Source: Erysipelotrichaceae bacterium
Lineage (GTDB): Bacteria > Bacillota_I > Bacilli_A > Erysipelotrichales > Erysipelotrichaceae
DNA: 57,301 nucleotides
Direction of reading: 5' to 3'
Assembly (NCBI GenBank): GCA_022767445.1
Contig: JALENJ010000060.1
Coordinates: 1 to 57,301 of the forward strand
Shown here one piece after another: positions 8,508 through 46,841 of the stretch. A program made the translations under genes and the position numbers. The stretch's first letter is position 1. Every line of letters begins with the position of its first letter. The notes beneath the pieces were generated by a model. It saw only the letters and a list, made by a program, of their open reading frames with translations. It was not told the origin of the DNA and searched no databases.

Positions 8508-9986
8508 ATGAAGCGTTACATTCTAGGCCGTGTAATCAGATCGATCTTTTCGATATTTGCGGTAGTTACAATCGCATTGATTTTGGTCTATACGCTAACA
8601 CCGCGCGATAGTATCTTTATTACAGATACAACTTACCAGAAGTTAAAAGCTGCGGATGACAAAAATAGATATAAGTTCAATACTTGGGAGAGTCTTGGAT
8701 ATTTACGCTTTGATGAGCAAAAGGACATGTGTGCAAAAACAGATGATTATGATGCATGTATGGTTGTTGGCTCTGATTTAGCAAAGAAACAAGCAGCTAA
8801 GTATGAAGCAGATGGTTATACTGTTGAGAAATATTCTGATGGTAGATACTATGCACATAAGGATTATTCTGTTCCTGAGTTAGTTATTAACTGGTTTGGA
8901 AGATTGATTAAAGTAGATCATCCATTCAAGATGTATGATAGCAACAATGAAGGTCTTGCTAGAAAAATTTACATCGAAAATGACTACAACGGATTACCAG
9001 CTATTAAGTGCTCTGGTTGTGAACACAAGTACTTAATTTACATGGATGGTACATTCCCATTTGTGCATCAGAATATTGTAAGTCTTGATTTTGGTATTTC
9101 ATATCCAACATTTAGTGGTGTTGATGTAGCTACAGTCATCACACAATCACAGGGTAATGCGGTTAGCCAAGAAGTTACATTTGAAACAGGAAAGACTTCT
9201 TCAACAGCTGTTAACTTACATTCGTGTGAATATAAGTATACTGAGCTATTAGATAACATCGATACAAGTAGATTTAGTGATAACTATGCGAACTGTTCTT
9301 CGAATCTAGCAGATCCATCTATGATTTCTACATCAGCGATTCAGGGTATTATTGCATTGATCTTGACATACCTAATTGGTATTCCTGCCGGTATGGTAAT
9401 GGCTGCAAATAAGGACAAGTGGCAAGATAAGCTTGGAACTGTATACATCAACATTATGAGTGCCGTCCCATCTCTAGCATTTATCTACTTTGTAAGATCA
9501 ATTGGTATGTTTGCTGGTCTTCCAGATAAGTTCCCAGTATATGGTGCACATGATGTTCGCTCATATATCATGCCTGTATTGATTCTAGGTCTATTGAGTA
9601 CTGGTGGACAGATGTTGTGGATTAGACGTTACATGGTTGACCAATCAAGTGCTGACTATGTTAAATTTGCGCGTGCAAAGGGATTATCTAACAATGAGAT
9701 TTTCCGTACACATATCTTACGTAATGCGATTATTCCGTTTGTTAATGGATTCCCATCAGCAGTTATCTTAACGATTTCTGGTGCGGTTATTACAGAGACT
9801 GTATTCGCAATTCCTGGTATGGGTAAGATGTTGCCAGATAGTATTAAGGCATACAATAACCCAATGGTAATTGGTTTAACATTTATCTTTACGGCAGTTA
9901 GTATCTTTGCATTATTACTAGGTGACTTACTTGTTACGGTTGTAGATCCTCGTATCCAACTTCAAGCGAAAGGAGATGCAAGATAA
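8508..9986 (+). CDS. oppB: Oligopeptide ABC transporter permease OppB (AmiC-like)
   Basis: Membrane subunit of a peptide importer. ATG 8508 is preferred over GTG 8499 because AGGGGTG lies 6 bp before it. One N-terminal membrane span (ILGRVIRSIFSIFAVV) is followed by an extracellular insert of about 250 residues with several Cys (MCAKTDDYDACM, KCSGCEH). The usual permease core follows, with the EAA loop ARAKGLSNNEIFRTHILRN. At about 490 residues it matches the long AmiC-type OppB of streptococci rather than the roughly 310-residue enteric form. It overlaps oppC by one base and heads oppBCDF. No substrate-binding oppA lies beside it. Confidence 0.9.
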   Translation: MKRYILGRVIRSIFSIFAVVTIALILVYTLTPRDSIFITDTTYQKLKAADDKNRYKFNTWESLGYLRFDEQKDMCAKTDDYDACMVVGSDLAKKQAAKYEADGYTVEKYSDGRYYAHKDYSVPELVINWFGRLIKVDHPFKMYDSNNEGLARKIYIENDYNGLPAIKCSGCEHKYLIYMDGTFPFVHQNIVSLDFGISYPTFSGVDVATVITQSQGNAVSQEVTFETGKTSSTAVNLHSCEYKYTELLDNIDTSRFSDNYANCSSNLADPSMISTSAIQGIIALILTYLIGIPAGMVMAANKDKWQDKLGTVYINIMSAVPSLAFIYFVRSIGMFAGLPDKFPVYGAHDVRSYIMPVLILGLLSTGGQMLWIRRYMVDQSSADYVKFARAKGLSNNEIFRTHILRNAIIPFVNGFPSAVILTISGAVITETVFAIPGMGKMLPDSIKAYNNPMVIGLTFIFTAVSIFALLLGDLLVTVVDPRIQLQAKGDAR

Positions 9987-13430: not shown

Positions 13431-14939
13431 ATGGCAGAAAATAGAACTTATATCGCAATTGACTTAAAATCATTCTATGCCTCTGTAGAGTGCCAAGATC
13501 GTAAATTAAATCCACTAACCGCAAATCTTGTTGTGGCGGATTTATCACGTACGAGTAAGACAATCTGCCTAGCAGTTTCACCTTCTTTAAAGAAACTGGG
13601 AATTCCTGGTAGACCACGTCTATTTGAAGTAAAACAGAAGATCGCAGAATTAAACCGCAATCGTCTAAGCAATTTAAAAACAAAGACGTTCACAAATGAG
13701 GATTGGAACAGTGATGTTTTAGAACAACATCCAGATTATAAGATTACATACGTAATCGCCAAGCCTCGCATGGCGAAATACTTAGAATACAGTGCTAGAA
13801 TCCATCAGATATACCTGCGATATATCGCAGCTGAGGATATCCATGTCTATTCCATTGACGAGGTTATGATGGATGTGACAGAATACCTGCGTACGTACCA
13901 AATGAGTGCACGCCAACTTGCACAGAAGATGATACAGGATGTCTTAAAGGAAACGGGTATTACCGCAACTGCTGGCATTGGCACAAATCTATATCTAGCA
14001 AAGGTTGCGATGGATATTATTGCCAAGTACTTACCAGCGGATGAGTATGGTGTACGTATCGGTGAGCTTGATGAGCTGTCCTATCGTAAACAACTATGGA
14101 ATCATCGTCCACTCACTGACTTTTGGCGTATTGGTAGAGGTTATGCCAATAAGCTTGAAAAGAATGGGATGTATACCATGGGGGATGTCGCTAGGTGTTC
14201 CATTGGTAGCGATGATGCAATGCACAATGAAGAGTTATTGTATAAGTTGTTTGGTATTAATGCTGAGCTGTTAATTGATCATGCTTGGGGGTATGAATCC
14301 TGCACAATGGATGCGATTAAGCACTATCAACCTACAAATCATAGCTTCTCATCAGGACAAGTTTTGGTGAGAGGATATACATTTACAGAAGCGAAGTTAA
14401 TCGCCAAAGAAATGGCAGATCAATTAACATTGGACTTGGTTGCCAAAGGCATGACAACCAAACAGATCGGTATCATGATAGGCTACGATACAGATAGCTT
14501 AAAAAATATCTCTGATTCCATCGATTCGATGGACTTAGCACGAGATTGGTATGGAAGAGTTGTACCTAAACCTGTCAATGGTTCTATCCGTTTAACACAT
14601 CATACATCCTCCACAAAACTAATCCTGAAAGCAGTGGAAGAACTTTATGATAAACTTGTTAACCACAATATGTTAGTGCGTAGAGTGAATATCACCTTCA
14701 TGAGTATCCTAAGTAGCCAAGAGGCAAAGAAACGCACAGAAGCTATCCAATTAAATCTATTTATGTCAGATCATGATGAAGTGATGGAAGAGGAAGATGA
14801 TAAGGAATATGAACTCCAGAAAGCAATTCTTTCCATCAAAAATAAATTCGGTAAGAATAAACTGGTAAAGGGCAGAGATCTACAAGAAGAAGCGACAATG
14901 ATGGAAAGAAATAACCAGATTGGAGGACATAAAGCATGA
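13431..14939 (+). CDS. Y-family DNA polymerase (UmuC/UvrX-like)
   Basis: Translesion DNA polymerase of 502 residues. ATG 13431 follows GAGGTGAG; the upstream in-frame codons run through the terminator. The catalytic palm is visible as IAIDLKSFYASVE near residue 7 and YSIDEVMMD near 140. The helix-hairpin-helix and little-finger regions follow. Length and the paired YolD-like gene fit the UvrX/ImpB group rather than chromosomal DinB. It overlaps the next gene by 4 bp (ATGA). A promoter-overlapping dyad suggests repression, perhaps damage-inducible. Confidence 0.88.
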   Translation: MAENRTYIAIDLKSFYASVECQDRKLNPLTANLVVADLSRTSKTICLAVSPSLKKLGIPGRPRLFEVKQKIAELNRNRLSNLKTKTFTNEDWNSDVLEQHPDYKITYVIAKPRMAKYLEYSARIHQIYLRYIAAEDIHVYSIDEVMMDVTEYLRTYQMSARQLAQKMIQDVLKETGITATAGIGTNLYLAKVAMDIIAKYLPADEYGVRIGELDELSYRKQLWNHRPLTDFWRIGRGYANKLEKNGMYTMGDVARCSIGSDDAMHNEELLYKLFGINAELLIDHAWGYESCTMDAIKHYQPTNHSFSSGQVLVRGYTFTEAKLIAKEMADQLTLDLVAKGMTTKQIGIMIGYDTDSLKNISDSIDSMDLARDWYGRVVPKPVNGSIRLTHHTSSTKLILKAVEELYDKLVNHNMLVRRVNITFMSILSSQEAKKRTEAIQLNLFMSDHDEVMEEEDDKEYELQKAILSIKNKFGKNKLVKGRDLQEEATMMERNNQIGGHKA

Positions 14940-40879: not shown

Positions 40880-41362
40880 ATGAGTGCACAAAAACCGACA
40901 TTTCGTATCATGAAAAATGGTTATGATCGGTTTGCGGTTGACGACGTGATGGAGCAGTATGCTGCACAGGTTTCCTTCCTACAAAGAAAGTTGGAGCTCT
41001 ATCAGGATCAAATGGTAGAGACAACACAGAAGTTGGAGGAGTTACAGGCACGTTATGATGAAGTTGAACGTGCGGTAGATGTACGTAAGGATGCGGCAGA
41101 CAGTATTACACGAGTATCTGTGCAAGAGGCACATGAAGTTGTGGCGAAGGCACAAGAAAATGCTGATGAGATTGTAAAAGAAGCTCTGTCGGTAGCTCGG
41201 TCGATATTGCTTGATTTATCGCAACTATATACAGAAGCCGGTGAAGTCAAGAGTGATCTTAGCCAACAGCTTACCGAATTACAAAAGAGTTTAGACAACT
41301 TTAAACTTCCAAAACTTCCAGATATGGATTGGTTAGAAGAGACTGATAAACAACTGCAGTGA
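40880..41362 (+). CDS. divIVA: DivIVA-domain protein
   Basis: A 160-residue coiled-coil protein. The lipid-binding N-domain is visible in FRIMKNGYDRFAVDDVMEQY. A long coiled coil follows from about residue 28 to 150, rich in E/Q/A heptads (QRKLELYQDQMVETTQKLEE). Members mark poles and septa and recruit division or wall enzymes. It follows ylmH by 11 bp and is followed by the ileS leader. Confidence 0.9.
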   Translation: MSAQKPTFRIMKNGYDRFAVDDVMEQYAAQVSFLQRKLELYQDQMVETTQKLEELQARYDEVERAVDVRKDAADSITRVSVQEAHEVVAKAQENADEIVKEALSVARSILLDLSQLYTEAGEVKSDLSQQLTELQKSLDNFKLPKLPDMDWLEETDKQLQ

Positions 41363-41369
41363 TCAGGAC

Positions 41370-41552
41370 ATGCTTTAACAGAGGGATTTCAAGAGAGTTC
41401 GCGGATGGTGGAAAGCGGATATGAAGACTGTTAATAGAATCACCTGTGAGCAATCGTAATTTCTGCGTTAAAGAAAAAATGAGTGTACGAGTAATCGTAA
41501 ACTAAGGTGGTACCGCGTATATAACGTCCTTAGATTTAAGGACGTTTTTATT
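41370..41552 (+). promoter_or_regulatory. T-box riboswitch (isoleucine) controlling ileS
   Basis: The T-box core AAGGTGGTACCGCG is at 41504-41517. Upstream stem I contains AGAGAG and GGATGGTGGAAAGC elements, with a likely specifier ATC (Ile) at 41439-41441. The terminator AACGTCCTTA/TAAGGACGTT (41523-41546) plus T-run is the alternative to the antiterminator. Uncharged tRNA-Ile would bind and allow read-through into ileS. Confidence 0.93.
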
Positions 41553-41574
41553 TTTGAGAAGAGGAGACAAGGAT

Positions 41575-44307
41575 ATGGACTACAAAGACACGTTGAACAT
41601 GCCAAACACAGACTTTGAAATGCGAGGAAATCTTGCAACGAAGGAGCCTGGCATTCTAGAAAACTGGCAAAAAGACAACTACTATCAAAACTTACTACAA
41701 CATCACAAAGGACAAAAGGCATTCATCTTGCATGATGGTCCTCCATACGCAAATGGAAACCTGCATGCAGGTACAGCGATGAACCGTACAATTAAGGACT
41801 TTATTGTACGTTCCCATGCGATGTCAGGATTCTATACACCATTCTTCCCAGGATGGGATACACATGGATTACCAATTGAAAACGCAATCCAAAAGCTCGG
41901 TGTTGATCGTAAGAGTCTATCCGCTGCAGAATTTAGACGTAAGTGTGAAGAATATGCACACCAGCAGATTGCCCAACAGATGGAAACAGAAAAGCGTCTA
42001 GGACAGATTGCGGATTATGATCATCCATACATCACACTAAAGAAAGAGTTTGAAGCGCGTCAGATTGAGTCCTTTGCCAAGATGGCATTGAAGGGCATGA
42101 TTTTCCAAGGCTTAAAGCCTGTATACTGGTCTCCATTTAATGAGACAGCTGTCGCTGACTCTGAGATTGTATATAAAGATGTTAAAGATGCGACAATCTA
42201 CCTCAAATTCCCTATCGTAGATGGTAAAGGTGTATTAAGTGCAGGCGATAACTTTGTAATTTGGACAACGACACCTTGGACAATTCCATCCAATATGGCA
42301 GTATCTGTTCACCCGGATTTGGAGTACGCACTTGTTAAGACAAACGTTGGTAACTTGGTTGTATTAGCGAAGTTTGTAGATTCATTACTTGCTAAGTTTG
42401 AGTTAGAAAACCAAGGTATCTTAAAGACATTTAAGGGTAAAGATATTGAATCTGTTACCTATCATCATGTTGTATTAGACAAGGATTGTCCGTGTCTGTT
42501 AGGTACGCATGTTACGGATGAGGATGGTACTGGTGTTGTACATACTGCCGGTGGTCATGGTATGGATGACTACCTTGTATGTATGAAGAATGGTATGGAT
42601 CCAATCTGTACAGTTGATGAGCGTGGTTATATGAATGAAGAAGCTGGACAATACCAAGGTATGTTCTTTGAAGATTGTTCTAAGGCCATCATTCATGACA
42701 TGAATGAGAAGGGATTCCTACTTAAAGTAGAGAATATTGTCCATGCATACCCACATGATGATCGTCTCAAGAAGAAGGTTATCTTCCGTGCCGTTAAACA
42801 ATGGTTCTGCTCAATTGATAAAGTACGTAAACAAGCACTTGATGAAATTGACAACCAAATTAAGTGGCATAACTCCTTTGGTCAAAAGCGTATGCACAAT
42901 ATGATCGCTGATCGTGGTGACTGGTGTATCTCAAGACAACGTCTATGGGGTGTTCCAATTCCTATCTTCTATTGTGAAGATGGCGCACCTATCATGGAGA
43001 AAGAAGTATTTGATCATATCGCTGAATTAGTTGGCCAATACGGTTCTAATATCTGGTTTGAAAAAGAAGCCAAGGACCTATTACCAGAAGGCTATCAGAA
43101 TGAGAAGTCACCAAATGGTATCTTCCACAAGGAAACAGATATCATGGATGTATGGTTTGACTCTGGATCTAGCTGGAATGAGTTGAGTGCTAGAGGCTAT
43201 GATTATCCATGTGATATCTACTTTGAAGGATCTGACCAGTATCGTGGTTGGTTCAACTCATCACTCATTGTTTCAACAGCTGTCAATGGTACAGCTCCAT
43301 ATAAAGAAGTACTTTCCCATGGTTATGTTGTGGACTCCAAGGGAGAAAAGATGTCTAAGTCCGTAGGTAATGTTGTTAATCCAATGGATATCATCAACCA
43401 AAATGGTGCAGATGTATTCCGTCTTTGGGCAATGTCATCTGACTTCAAGGAAGACTTGAAACTTGGTCCAAGTAATATCAAGCAAGTATCCGACCAATAT
43501 CGTAAGATTCGTAATACATTTAGATTCTTACTAGGTAACGTGAATGCAGAAGACTTCAATCCATCCAAGGATATGATTGACTTTGATGGACTAGAAAGAG
43601 TGGATCAACAAGTTCTTGTATTACTCAACGACTTAGTCAAAGATGTACGTCAAGATGTCTTGGATTATAACTATCTATCTGCTAATAAGAACTTAATGTA
43701 CTTCATGGTTAACATCCTATCTTCATACTATTGTGATTTCACAAAGGATATCCTATATGTCAGTGCGAAGGATGATAAGCGTAGAAGACAAGTACAGTCA
43801 GTCTACTGGGTGTGTGCAGATACATTAGTGAAGCTTTGGGCTCCATTCTTGGTATATACTGCTGAGGAAATCTGGTCACACTTCTCACACTTAGGTGAAA
43901 CTTCTGTACATTATGAAGAATTCCCAACTGTGAAAGAGTATGCAGAGGCAGAAGTATTACGCAATGAAATCAAACGTCTGCTTGAAATTCGTACCCTTGT
44001 CACAAAGGCAAACGAACAAGCTCGTAATGATAAACTCATCGCATCTAGCCAAGAAGCGAAAGTCATCCTCACTCTAGAGAAGGAAGATAAAGAGCTTGTT
44101 GAAAGCAACCTGAAAGAAGGTCTTGCGCAATGGCTCATCATCTCTCAAGTAGAACTCAAAGAGGGAGAACAAGATGTCCAAGTAGAGAAGGCAAGTGGAC
44201 AAAAGTGCCCACGTTGTTGGAACTATGATGAACATGTTGATGAAAATGGACTATGCCCAAGATGCCATGCGGTTATGGAAGGCTATAAGCTCATTCATCA
44301 AAACTAA
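41575..44307 (+). CDS. ileS: Isoleucyl-tRNA synthetase
   Basis: Class I synthetase of 910 residues charging tRNA-Ile. ATG 41575 follows GAGGAGA. The ATP-site HIGH box is altered: H64-A-G-T in PPYANGNLHAGTAMN. The KMSKS loop is intact at K592. The CP1 editing domain (WTTTPWTIPSN, GTGVVHTAGGHG) is present. A C-terminal zinc finger (CPRCWNYDEH ... GLCPRC) marks the bacterial type. It is controlled by the upstream T-box. Loss of the second His of HIGH is unusual for IleRS. Confidence 0.95.
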   Translation: MDYKDTLNMPNTDFEMRGNLATKEPGILENWQKDNYYQNLLQHHKGQKAFILHDGPPYANGNLHAGTAMNRTIKDFIVRSHAMSGFYTPFFPGWDTHGLPIENAIQKLGVDRKSLSAAEFRRKCEEYAHQQIAQQMETEKRLGQIADYDHPYITLKKEFEARQIESFAKMALKGMIFQGLKPVYWSPFNETAVADSEIVYKDVKDATIYLKFPIVDGKGVLSAGDNFVIWTTTPWTIPSNMAVSVHPDLEYALVKTNVGNLVVLAKFVDSLLAKFELENQGILKTFKGKDIESVTYHHVVLDKDCPCLLGTHVTDEDGTGVVHTAGGHGMDDYLVCMKNGMDPICTVDERGYMNEEAGQYQGMFFEDCSKAIIHDMNEKGFLLKVENIVHAYPHDDRLKKKVIFRAVKQWFCSIDKVRKQALDEIDNQIKWHNSFGQKRMHNMIADRGDWCISRQRLWGVPIPIFYCEDGAPIMEKEVFDHIAELVGQYGSNIWFEKEAKDLLPEGYQNEKSPNGIFHKETDIMDVWFDSGSSWNELSARGYDYPCDIYFEGSDQYRGWFNSSLIVSTAVNGTAPYKEVLSHGYVVDSKGEKMSKSVGNVVNPMDIINQNGADVFRLWAMSSDFKEDLKLGPSNIKQVSDQYRKIRNTFRFLLGNVNAEDFNPSKDMIDFDGLERVDQQVLVLLNDLVKDVRQDVLDYNYLSANKNLMYFMVNILSSYYCDFTKDILYVSAKDDKRRRQVQSVYWVCADTLVKLWAPFLVYTAEEIWSHFSHLGETSVHYEEFPTVKEYAEAEVLRNEIKRLLEIRTLVTKANEQARNDKLIASSQEAKVILTLEKEDKELVESNLKEGLAQWLIISQVELKEGEQDVQVEKASGQKCPRCWNYDEHVDENGLCPRCHAVMEGYKLIHQN

Positions 44308-44315
44308 GTAAACAA

Positions 44316-44354
44316 AAAGATTCTAAACATACATGGTATGCTTAGAATCTTTTT
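44316..44354. terminator. Bidirectional terminator ileS/metK
   Basis: AAAAAGATTCTAA pairs with TTAGAATCTTTTT, with an inner CATAC/GTATG, and T/A runs at both ends. It serves ileS and the convergent metK. Confidence 0.85.
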
Positions 44355-45448
44355 TAAACACTGATTTTCTTGAATTGTTCCCAAGGTAAGTAAGGCTTAC
44401 CAAAGTGACCATAGTTTGTTGTCTGTGTATAGATAGGTCTTTCAAGATTGAGCTCTTGAATCATATTCTTCACTGAGAAGTTGAAATTCTTCTTTACGAT
44501 TTCTTCAAGTTGTTCATCGCTATATTTAGAAGTGTTGAAACTGTTGATGTTGATGGAGATTGGATCAGGTTTACCAATCGCATAGGATAATTCAATTTGG
44601 CACTTCTTCGCCAGTCCGTTTGCAACGATATTACGGCAAACATAACGTGCATAGTAAGCAGCGGAACGATCTACTTTCGTAGGATCCTTAGAGGAGAAAC
44701 ATCCACCACCAATTGGCGCATATCCACCATAAGTATCAACTACAATCTTACGTCCAGTTGTACCGGAATCTCCCCAGCTTCCGCCAACGACGAAGGAACC
44801 AGAGGGATTGATTAAATACTTTGTATTTTCATCAATCAAGGATGAATCTACTGTACGATTGATGACTTTATCAATGATGAGCTTCTTTAACTCTTCTTGT
44901 GAGATATCCTTACTATGTTGTGTAGAAACAACAATTGTATCGATGCGTTTTAGTTTACCATCTTCATACTCTACGGTTACCTGTGTTTTTCCATCAGGGC
45001 CAAGAAGAGTAGGGTTTTCACGACGAGTTTCTTCTAGGTGTTTGGCTAGCATGTGCGCACAATCAATCGCAAATGGCATGTAGGATTCTGTTTCATCACT
45101 TGCATAGCCAAACATGATACCTTGATCACCTGCAGAGTATTCATCATGTTCAACTGCAGAGTTGATTTCAGCAGATTGTTTGTTTACCTTGACGATAACG
45201 TTATACTCTTCAGGATAGCCAATATCCTTTAAGACTTTCTTGGCAATTCCTGCATAGTCTATGGCAGCTTTTGTGCCCGCTTCACCATAGATGAAGATTG
45301 TATCATCTTTGATGGTCGCCTCAACTGCCATGTGGGATTTTGGATCTTGTGCTAAAGCTGCGTCCAAAATAGAATCGGCGATTAAATCACAGATTTTATC
45401 TGGATGACCGCTCGTAACGGATTCGGATGAAAAATAAAATTTAGACAT
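44354..45448 (-). CDS. metK: S-adenosylmethionine synthase
   Basis: Makes SAM from methionine and ATP. It is 364 residues long, somewhat shorter than the common 380-400. The three domains are recognisable: SVTSGHPDKICD at the start (ATP site), YSAGDQGIMFGYA near 105 and the phosphate loop GGGCFSSKDPTKVDRSAAY near 245. The usual GGGAFSGKD is GGGCFSSKD here. A strong AAGGAGG precedes ATG 45448. A structured leader of about 160 nt lies upstream and probably senses SAM. Confidence 0.95.
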   Translation of the reverse strand: MSKFYFSSESVTSGHPDKICDLIADSILDAALAQDPKSHMAVEATIKDDTIFIYGEAGTKAAIDYAGIAKKVLKDIGYPEEYNVIVKVNKQSAEINSAVEHDEYSAGDQGIMFGYASDETESYMPFAIDCAHMLAKHLEETRRENPTLLGPDGKTQVTVEYEDGKLKRIDTIVVSTQHSKDISQEELKKLIIDKVINRTVDSSLIDENTKYLINPSGSFVVGGSWGDSGTTGRKIVVDTYGGYAPIGGGCFSSKDPTKVDRSAAYYARYVCRNIVANGLAKKCQIELSYAIGKPDPISININSFNTSKYSDEQLEEIVKKNFNFSVKNMIQELNLERPIYTQTTNYGHFGKPYLPWEQFKKISV

Positions 45449-45612
45449 AATAAAACCTCCTTCTTTGTGTCTTTTTAATAACGACAGATGAAAGAGGTTA
45501 TTTTGTTTTATCTACTCTTTCCTTATCGATGTCAGCTGTACCACCTTGCGTAGTATGCAGGTTGGTGTGAGGTCATTGAGCTGACTCTCTACCTCAGTTC
45601 TTGATAAAAGAC
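45449..45612 (-). promoter_or_regulatory. Structured metK leader, probable SAM riboswitch variant
   Basis: On the minus strand, P1 TTTTATC/GATAAGG (45609-45603 with 45527-45521) encloses hairpin A TGAGGT/ACCTCA (45596-45591, 45573-45568). It also encloses hairpin B ACCTGC/GCAAGGT (45562-45557, 45549-45543). The loop of A (GTCAGCT) can pair over 7 bp with AGCTGAC (45537-45531), a pseudoknot. S-box-like strings AAGA, AATGA and CCAACC...GGTG are present but the P4 hairpin of SAM-I is missing. Downstream, AATAACCTC can mask the ribosome site, and GAAAGAG/CTCTTTC can free it. This suggests translational control. Confidence 0.6.
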
Positions 45613-45618
45613 ATCATA

Positions 45619-45647
45619 ATTAAAACATTAGATATACTGCTTGTCAA
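45619..45647 (-). promoter_or_regulatory. metK promoter
   Basis: On the minus strand a perfect TTGACA (45647-45642), a 17-bp spacer and TTTAAT (45624-45619). Its -35 abuts the divergent permease promoter. Confidence 0.8.
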
Positions 45648-45677
45648 TTGATATGTTTACAACAAAACTGATATAAT
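45648..45677 (+). promoter_or_regulatory. Promoter of AI-2E family gene
   Basis: TTGATA (45648-45653), an 18-bp spacer, then TATAAT (45672-45677) with TGA upstream. Confidence 0.7.
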
Positions 45678-45698: not shown

Positions 45699-46841
45699 AT
45701 GAAGTGGTTTAATCTCAAAGACGAAACAGTAGAAAGTATTAAAGCTTTTACGATTTCTGGAATATTCGTAGTATCATTCTATTTACTTGTTAGTAATGTA
45801 GAACCTTTATATGAAGTGCTTACAGGTATATTTGTCGCGTTAGCACCGTTTATCTATGGCATTGCAATTGCGTTCTTATTGAATCCAATGCGTAAGATTA
45901 TTGAGTATAGTTGGTTATCTAAGACTTCATTAAAACCAAAAGTGAAAAAGACAATCGCATGCTTTAGTTCATTGTTAATAGGTCTTGTGCTTTTATTTAT
46001 CTTCTTTTCAATCTTGATTCCACAGTTGATATTATCAATTCAAACATTCATGTCTTCATTTGAAGGATATGTAGATTCTGCACGTGATCTGTTTGAAAGA
46101 AATGCAATTATTGGAGATGAGTTATTGAATACATTGAATCCTTTCATTGATCGAGCAGTGAATGTATTAGGAGACTGGGCAACCAATCTTGCAAAGAGTT
46201 TAAATGCGATACTTGCCTATAGTGTCATCTTTGCAAGAGGTGTCATGAATTTCTTTATCGGTATGATTATCGCTTTATACATACTTCTAGATGAAATCAA
46301 TCTAAAGCGACAGACAAAGAAAGTGTTATATGCATTATTACCAAAGAAAACAACAGAAAATATTCTAAGTACAATGCGTTTGACGATATCTACGTTTAAC
46401 AGCTTCGTAGCTGGTAAGGCAGTAGATTCACTGATTATCGGTATCTTGTGCTATATCATCTTATCGTTTATGAATATGCCATATACACCACTTATCAGTG
46501 TGGTCGTTGGTGTAACGAATATGATTCCTGTATTTGGTCCATTCTTAGGTGCTGTACCAAGTATCTTAATCCTATTGTTGGTTGATCCATTTAAGGCAGT
46601 TGAGTTTGGAATATTTATCTTGATCTTACAGCAGATAGATGGAAATATTATCGGTCCAAGAATCCTGGGTGGTGCAGTAGGTTTACCTACACTATATGTC
46701 ATGTTTGCGATTATCGTAGGTGGGGCAATGTTTGGTGTTGTAGGTATGTTTATCGGTGTACCGGTATTCTCTGTCATCTTTGTATTAGTGAGTGACTTTA
46801 TTCATCATCGATTACAGATGAAAGATATTGTTGTAGAGTAA
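45699..46841 (+). CDS. AI-2E family (PerM-like) membrane protein
   Basis: A 380-residue protein with about eight spans. Two N-terminal spans (ISGIFVVSFYLLVSN; LAPFIYGIAIAFLLNPM) precede a helical loop. The typical C-terminal block contains TPLISVVVGVTNMIPVFGPF and ILQQIDGNIIGPRILG. Members export autoinducer-2 or act as Na+(Li+)/H+ antiporters; which applies here is not clear. It has its own divergent promoter and a bidirectional terminator. Confidence 0.85.
   Translation: MKWFNLKDETVESIKAFTISGIFVVSFYLLVSNVEPLYEVLTGIFVALAPFIYGIAIAFLLNPMRKIIEYSWLSKTSLKPKVKKTIACFSSLLIGLVLLFIFFSILIPQLILSIQTFMSSFEGYVDSARDLFERNAIIGDELLNTLNPFIDRAVNVLGDWATNLAKSLNAILAYSVIFARGVMNFFIGMIIALYILLDEINLKRQTKKVLYALLPKKTTENILSTMRLTISTFNSFVAGKAVDSLIIGILCYIILSFMNMPYTPLISVVVGVTNMIPVFGPFLGAVPSILILLLVDPFKAVEFGIFILILQQIDGNIIGPRILGGAVGLPTLYVMFAIIVGGAMFGVVGMFIGVPVFSVIFVLVSDFIHHRLQMKDIVVE

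Follow-up and report, generated by a model that had tools for sequence, protein, structure and literature searches.

A P4-less SAM-I riboswitch predicted to control metK translation in an Erysipelotrichaceae gut bacterium

Which kind of RNA stands ahead of metK in a gut Erysipelotrichaceae bacterium, and how might it regulate that gene? The window, by which we mean the whole 57,301-nucleotide stretch of DNA that was analysed, carries a metK leader of about 165 nt on its minus strand, with the riboswitch RNA at 45613-45454, upstream of metK (Table 1). A preliminary description, made from the sequence alone, had linked this leader to the SAM riboswitch clan, had found no fourth helix, and had wavered between a SAM-I/IV-type variant and an undescribed class. 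All of the strings that it named were found in their places on the minus strand. We conclude that the leader is very probably a P4-less SAM-I (S-box) riboswitch that controls metK translation by negative feedback.

Table 1. Features of the metK leader, its promoter, and its gene, in window coordinates.
Feature	Position	Strand	Basis
-35 box TTGACA, metK promoter, 17-nt spacer	45642..45647	-	read from sequence
-10 box TTTAAT, preceded by TG (extended -10)	45619..45624	-	sequence
S1 UGUCUUUU, overlaps P1 5' strand, complementary to S4	45606..45613	-	pairing in 36 leaders
P1 5' strand	45603..45610	-	RF00162 alignment; covariation
P2 with kink-turn (tandem G.A 45589-45588 / 45574-45573) and P2b	45568..45596	-	RF00162 alignment; covariation; position-wise conservation
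PK-1 5' strand GUCAGC, in P2 loop	45580..45585	-	covariation
P3 with SAM-binding internal loop (ACCAACC...GGUGGU)	45540..45566	-	RF00162 alignment; covariation; position-wise conservation
PK-1 3' strand GCUGAC	45531..45536	-	covariation
3-nt linker AUC (ANC consensus), in place of P4	45528..45530	-	alignment; linker lengths in relatives
P1 3' strand	45520..45527	-	RF00162 alignment; covariation
S2, putative antisequestrator 5' strand GAAAGAG, overlaps P1 3' strand	45515..45521	-	pairing with S3 in 36 leaders
S3, putative anti-SD AACCUCUUUC; CUCUUUC part also pairs with S2	45490..45499	-	S3:SD duplex energy, covariation
S4 AAAAGACA, complementary to S1	45468..45475	-	permutation test; leader alignment
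SD and surroundings GAAGGAGGUU, anti-SD target	45454..45463	-	duplex energy, covariation
metK, S-adenosylmethionine synthetase, 364 aa, predicted regulated gene	44354..45448	-	Pfam S-AdoMet_synt N, M and C, E 5e-29 to 3e-62

The sole credible match of the leader in Rfam 15 was RF00162 (SAM-I), which aligned over its full model length at 38.7 bits (E = 4.1e-7 in 801 nt searched and 2.3e-7 in the whole genome). The search of the Rfam SAM models that the preliminary description had called for pointed to SAM-I. The score lies below the gathering cut-off of 44.4 bits, which is an annotation threshold and not a structural trait. As a result, default annotation leaves the region blank. Close relatives with the same architecture (L028 and L029) exceed the cut-off at about 62 bits, and P4-less relatives above it would receive the Rfam label SAM-I. 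The SAM-I/IV model (RF01725) scored 35.6 bits (E = 3.6e-4; cut-off, 41.1), 3 bits under SAM-I, with a match reaching 45489 that probably takes the GAAAGAG/CUCUUUC hairpin for P5. The SAM-IV model (RF00634) gave no match to the leader even at an E value of 10. A Rhino_CRE match, far under its cut-off, was dismissed as chance. With a model from which all sequences of the source genus had been left out (R2), we found the riboswitch with E values of 3.1e-26 (window) and 1.0e-24 (genome).

Relatives were collected by searches with the MetK protein and with RF00162. Many of the leaders came from Erysipelotrichaceae, including Solobacterium-like rumen MAGs, Holdemanella, Faecalitalea, and Erysipelothrix. 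Of the 131 parsed RF00162 hits in this family, 112 lack P4 and 19 carry it; the shortened form is the commoner one. The spacing between GGUG and the P1 3' strand has two modes, 13 to 15 nt in nearly all of the 112 P4-less sequences and 23 to 27 nt (43 nt in one) in the P4-bearing group, where a hairpin is visible in most. The P4-less sequences comprise subtype I (GCAACC..GGUGC, pseudoknot CAAG/CUUG) and subtype II (CCAACC..GGUGG, pseudoknot GUYAGC/GCURAC), which includes the leader studied here; it is the short spacing of both subtypes that led us to file it as a P4-less variant. Of 66 subtype-II aptamers, 60 are followed immediately by a recognisable metK, and a divergent MetK comes after two of the remaining six. 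A dedicated model (R1) found 52 of 60 genomes of the source genus, recovered five of the six genus genomes without any RF00162 SAM-I hit, and at E = 0.001 found 113 of 395 genomes across the class. When the sequences were read, the P4-less form with a complementary pseudoknot was present in at least 10 other families of the class; the families in which it was read are labelled f6, f8, f9, f11, f12, f14, f15, f17, f20, f21, and f22. In a sample of 392 genomes from the phylum, all matches listed fall in the same class.

Some relatives are arranged in other ways. One leader (L293; G318:C4:126742-126827) combines a subtype-II-like core (CCAACC..GGUGG) with a P4-like hairpin (AAAGTTTAACTTT) and is a possible intermediate in P4 loss. 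Tandem SAM-I aptamers, about 55 to 70 nt apart, stand ahead of a small protein in L016 (G137:C50:14418-14503 and 14571-14666; one P4-bearing, one P4-less) and L014 (G161:C90:8746-8841 and 8896-8994; one P4-bearing), and this protein has no Pfam or PHROG family. Small proteins rather than methionine genes also follow the subtype-I P4-less aptamers of L021, L026, G042:C29, G083:C2, G106:C63, and G046:C104 (for example, MEKLNFNHKENQHRC... and MNNVKMILEKYGKDTIWFYLKDD...), again with no significant Pfam or PHROG match. The subtype-I aptamers of L023, L027, and L031 precede a MetK-like protein (MKLFSNEIVFRGHPDKVCD...) that diverges from the family's standard MetK.

The metK leader contains a complete SAM-I core, consisting of P1, a kink-turned P2, P3, and the pseudoknot PK-1, with a 3-nt linker replacing P4. 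The P1 strands (CTTTTATC/GATAAGGA) form 7 of 8 pairs, and PK-1 is followed by ANC and then by the GAU of P1. The kink-turn of SAM-I (tandem G.A and a 3-nt bulge in P2) is present, as is a PK-1 that links the P2 loop to the J3/4 position. Across 41 subtype-II aptamers, 93.1% of cells in the named structure were paired, and sliding columns by 1 to 3 positions as a control cut pairing to 30 to 41%. Two-sided changes occurred in 16 of 28 pairs, compared with 7.0 in shuffles (0/500), and the covariation score was 0.242 versus 0.136 when shuffled (0/500). An absence of covariation had been named beforehand as grounds for abandoning the proposal; we found covariation in P1, P2, P3, and PK-1. The proposed P1 closure and two hairpins, which correspond to P2 and P3, are far beyond chance by the whole-genome Rfam and R2 E-values and by the covariation test.

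The pseudoknot itself was 98.8% paired in these aptamers, with two-sided changes in four of six pairs and compensatory types at the outer pair that include G-C, A-U, and U-A. In other families its strands are still complementary (UAUAGC/GCUAUA, CUAGC/GCUAG, and CAAGC/GCUUG). A 7-bp loop-tail pairing had been proposed between GTCAGCT (45585-45579) and AGCTGAC (45537-45531). The two strings are complementary, but only six of the seven pairs are supported; we rejected the seventh, U45579-A45537, which competes with P2b and has a 3' base that is not conserved. Nor is this a different pseudoknot, as had been thought: the topology, from the P2 loop to J3/1 with compensatory changes, is that of an ordinary SAM-I PK-1 lengthened to 5 to 6 pairs. 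The absence of P4 was correctly described, with the 3-nt linker in its place.

The roles of the SAM-contacting positions are taken from the Thermoanaerobacter tengcongensis structure (PMC3764141). In that numbering, A6, U7, G11, C44, A45, U57, and G58 are present in all 41 subtype-II aptamers, and G86, A87, and U88 in 40 of the 41. The leader has the SAM-I ligand core, namely the P1 pairs A6-U88 and U7-A87, G11, C44-G58, A45, and U57. The only change in the core is at the P3 pair 43-59, which is C-G instead of G-C in all 41 aptamers; it is compensated and marks subtype II. Because of a shorter loop, A24 of SAM-I has no counterpart. With SAM-I as the best Rfam match and this core conserved, membership in the SAM clan was upheld, and the intact core speaks against an undescribed ligand class. 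Sequence comparison demonstrates how the aptamer folds, that P4 is missing and PK-1 present, and that the ligand core is conserved; SAM is the predicted ligand.

It is conceivable that the ligand has changed, as in the spermidine-binding SAM-I variants (PMC10853860), or that another SAM-related compound is sensed. SAM-I variants with new ligands exist, and both the loss of P4 and the pair flipped in every subtype-II aptamer could be read in this way. However, the spermidine riboswitch, which shares the SAM-I scaffold, is altered in J1/2 and in the internal loop of P3 (PMC10853860), where the metK leader keeps the SAM-I letters, and the gene in 60 of 66 cases is metK, on which feedback by SAM would be expected, rather than a polyamine gene. 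We therefore rejected a changed ligand as very unlikely.

SAM-I is a model riboswitch with a four-way junction. With it (RF00162) the leader shares P1, the kink-turned P2, P3 with the CAAC(C)/GGUG core, all SAM-contacting positions, PK-1 from the P2 loop to the strand after P3, the gene association, and the predicted off-switch logic. It differs in lacking P4, so that PK-1 is connected to P1 by three nucleotides (ANC) and the junction is three-way rather than four-way; in a longer PK-1 of 5 to 6 pairs that absorbs the last P2b pair; in the C-G that subtype II has for G43-C59; and in a score under the Rfam cut-off. We accordingly class it as a structural variant within SAM-I rather than a canonical member, with the core, the predicted ligand, and the apparent logic of SAM-I.

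Might it instead be of the SAM-I/IV or SAM-IV type, with the shared SAM core and a PK-2/P5 module in place of P4? SAM-IV has P5 and PK-2 and no P4, which makes the missing helix a SAM-IV trait, while SAM-I/IV has P4 and PK-2 but neither PK-1 (PMC6890682) nor an internal loop in P2 (PMC2864571). Like SAM-IV (RF00634), the leader builds P1, P2, P3, and PK-1 on the shared core, but we found in it neither P5, nor PK-2, nor the different 4-nt P2 turn of that class (PMC6890682). With SAM-I/IV (RF01725) it shares the SAM core and the weak, sub-threshold match, yet it is the opposite of that class on each feature tested, having PK-1, retaining the P2 internal loop as a kink-turn, and lacking P4. Pairing of the P3 loops with the 70 nt downstream gave no PK-2 signal (-2.66 kcal/mol versus -2.71 kcal/mol when swapped; 1209/2000), and a stable hairpin right after P1 was rare (8/56). 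A GUAG/CUAC complement between the P3 loop and downstream sequence in the window was not found in relatives and was judged to be chance. The earlier suggestion of a SAM-I/IV-type variant was not borne out, and we give this reading almost no weight.

As to the gene, three S-AdoMet_synt domains and the position of most subtype-II relatives agree with metK as the target. A TTGACA-N17-TTTAAT promoter with an extended -10 at 45647-45619 leads us to expect the metK transcript to start at about 45612-45614, within a few bases of 45613. TTGAC-type boxes occur at the matching position in most leaders of the source genus, and A/T-rich boxes resembling the metK -10 occur in other genus leaders as well. 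This promoter was missed by a promoter scan because its -10 has no A at position 2. Close behind it lies a divergent promoter-like TTGATA-N18-TATAAT (45648-45677, plus strand), for a transporter-like ORF at 45699. On the other side, convergent with metK, a T-box leader (41350-41534, plus strand; 99.7 bits) stands directly upstream of an isoleucyl-tRNA synthetase-like ORF (41554-44307).

We examined the expression platform in an alignment of 36 distinct leaders of the source genus. It contains five recurring strands, namely S1, (N)GUCUUUU at the 5' end; S2, GAAAGAG after P1; S3, (NNN)CUCUUUC; S4, AAAAGAC(N); and the SD. In the window the anti-SD reads AATAACCTC at 45502-45494, and GAAAGAG (45521-45515) stands opposite CTCTTTC (45496-45490). 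S3 and the SD co-vary past the SD core (AACCUC/GAGGUU, AAGCUC/GAGCUU, AAUCUC/GAGAUU, and AGUCUC/GGGACU). Their mean duplex energy was -12.4 kcal/mol for native versus -10.5 kcal/mol for swapped partners (0/5000 permutations), and their covariation score was matched in 0/500 controls, with controls that in both cases leave relatedness in. The S2:S3 antisequestrator was 96.8% paired and is nearly invariant, so that covariation cannot test this helix. S1:S4 was paired in 93.4% of cells with a single clear compensation (UGUCUUCU/AGAAGACA). Since its covariation counts were not above shuffles in this alignment, and with a weak permutation result (40/5000) in a test where a few S4 strings were mis-extracted, we put the S1:S4 helix forward as a proposal. 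The pairing of the putative anti-SD with the SD and the conservation of the competing strands are established at the level of sequence comparison. The coherent translational switch of the preliminary description, built on an anti-SD and a competing GAAAGAG/CTCTTTC stem, therefore stands as regards its strands and the covariation of anti-SD with SD, and the control that it implies is probable.

These strands suggest the following mechanism. Transcription would begin just ahead of P1. When SAM binds, PK-1 and P1 would be locked and the P1 3' strand made unavailable to CUCUUUC, which with its AAC extension would then pair with the SD region, block ribosome binding, and turn the gene off. When SAM is scarce, the P1 3' strand plus AAGAG would pair with CUCUUUC, and the P1 5' strand could pair with S4; P1 would be dismantled from both sides, the SD freed, and MetK made. 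The off state would thus be P1 with S3:SD, and the on state S2:S3 with or without S1:S4. By ViennaRNA secondary-structure energies, 30 of the 36 leaders favoured the antisequestrator state over the sequestered one, as would be expected of an off-switch that requires its ligand. In the window leader the off state was slightly lower without SAM (sequestered, -36.7; antisequestrator, -35.1; minimum free energy, -39.4), in an energy model that covers secondary structure without pseudoknot, ligand, or kinetics.

The same aptamer could also act on transcription, in whole or in part, if the hairpin formed by S3 and the SD region, together with the U-rich sequence behind it, were a large-loop terminator. 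Among subtype-II leaders from outside the genus, 50 of 59 end in compact terminator-like hairpins, often with the CUCUUUC string, and the genus hairpin resembles a modified terminator. Moreover, each of the 36 aligned genus leaders has a U-rich run after its SD, which leaves some transcription termination possible. However, the window hairpin has a loop of about 26 nt and only UUAUU after its stem, a terminator scan of the window leader found none, and the 3' arm that covaries is none other than the Shine-Dalgarno sequence, which lies 7 nt from the AUG. We consider terminator-based or mixed control unlikely and infer translational control in the direction outlined above. Given the hairpins outside the genus, the source genus appears to have turned a terminator arm into an anti-SD.

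We found no paper describing a P4-less SAM-I in the open-access literature, a search that does not establish its absence from the literature overall. It is possible, though we hold this only tentatively, that within the class to which the genus belongs the P4-less S-boxes form a branch of their own in the SAM clan, hitherto undescribed, with the clan's minimal architecture of core, kink-turn, and PK-1 that would be a plausible intermediate between SAM-I and SAM-IV and, in the genus, a switch of four strands in which S1:S4 opens P1 from one side and S2:S3 from the other. In practical terms, the Rfam cut-off overlooks part of the P4-less group. An architecture lying between SAM-I and SAM-IV bears on how the clan diversified. 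Finally, the natural removal of P4 in many lineages suggests that this helix is dispensable when PK-1 is longer, an idea that is directly testable.
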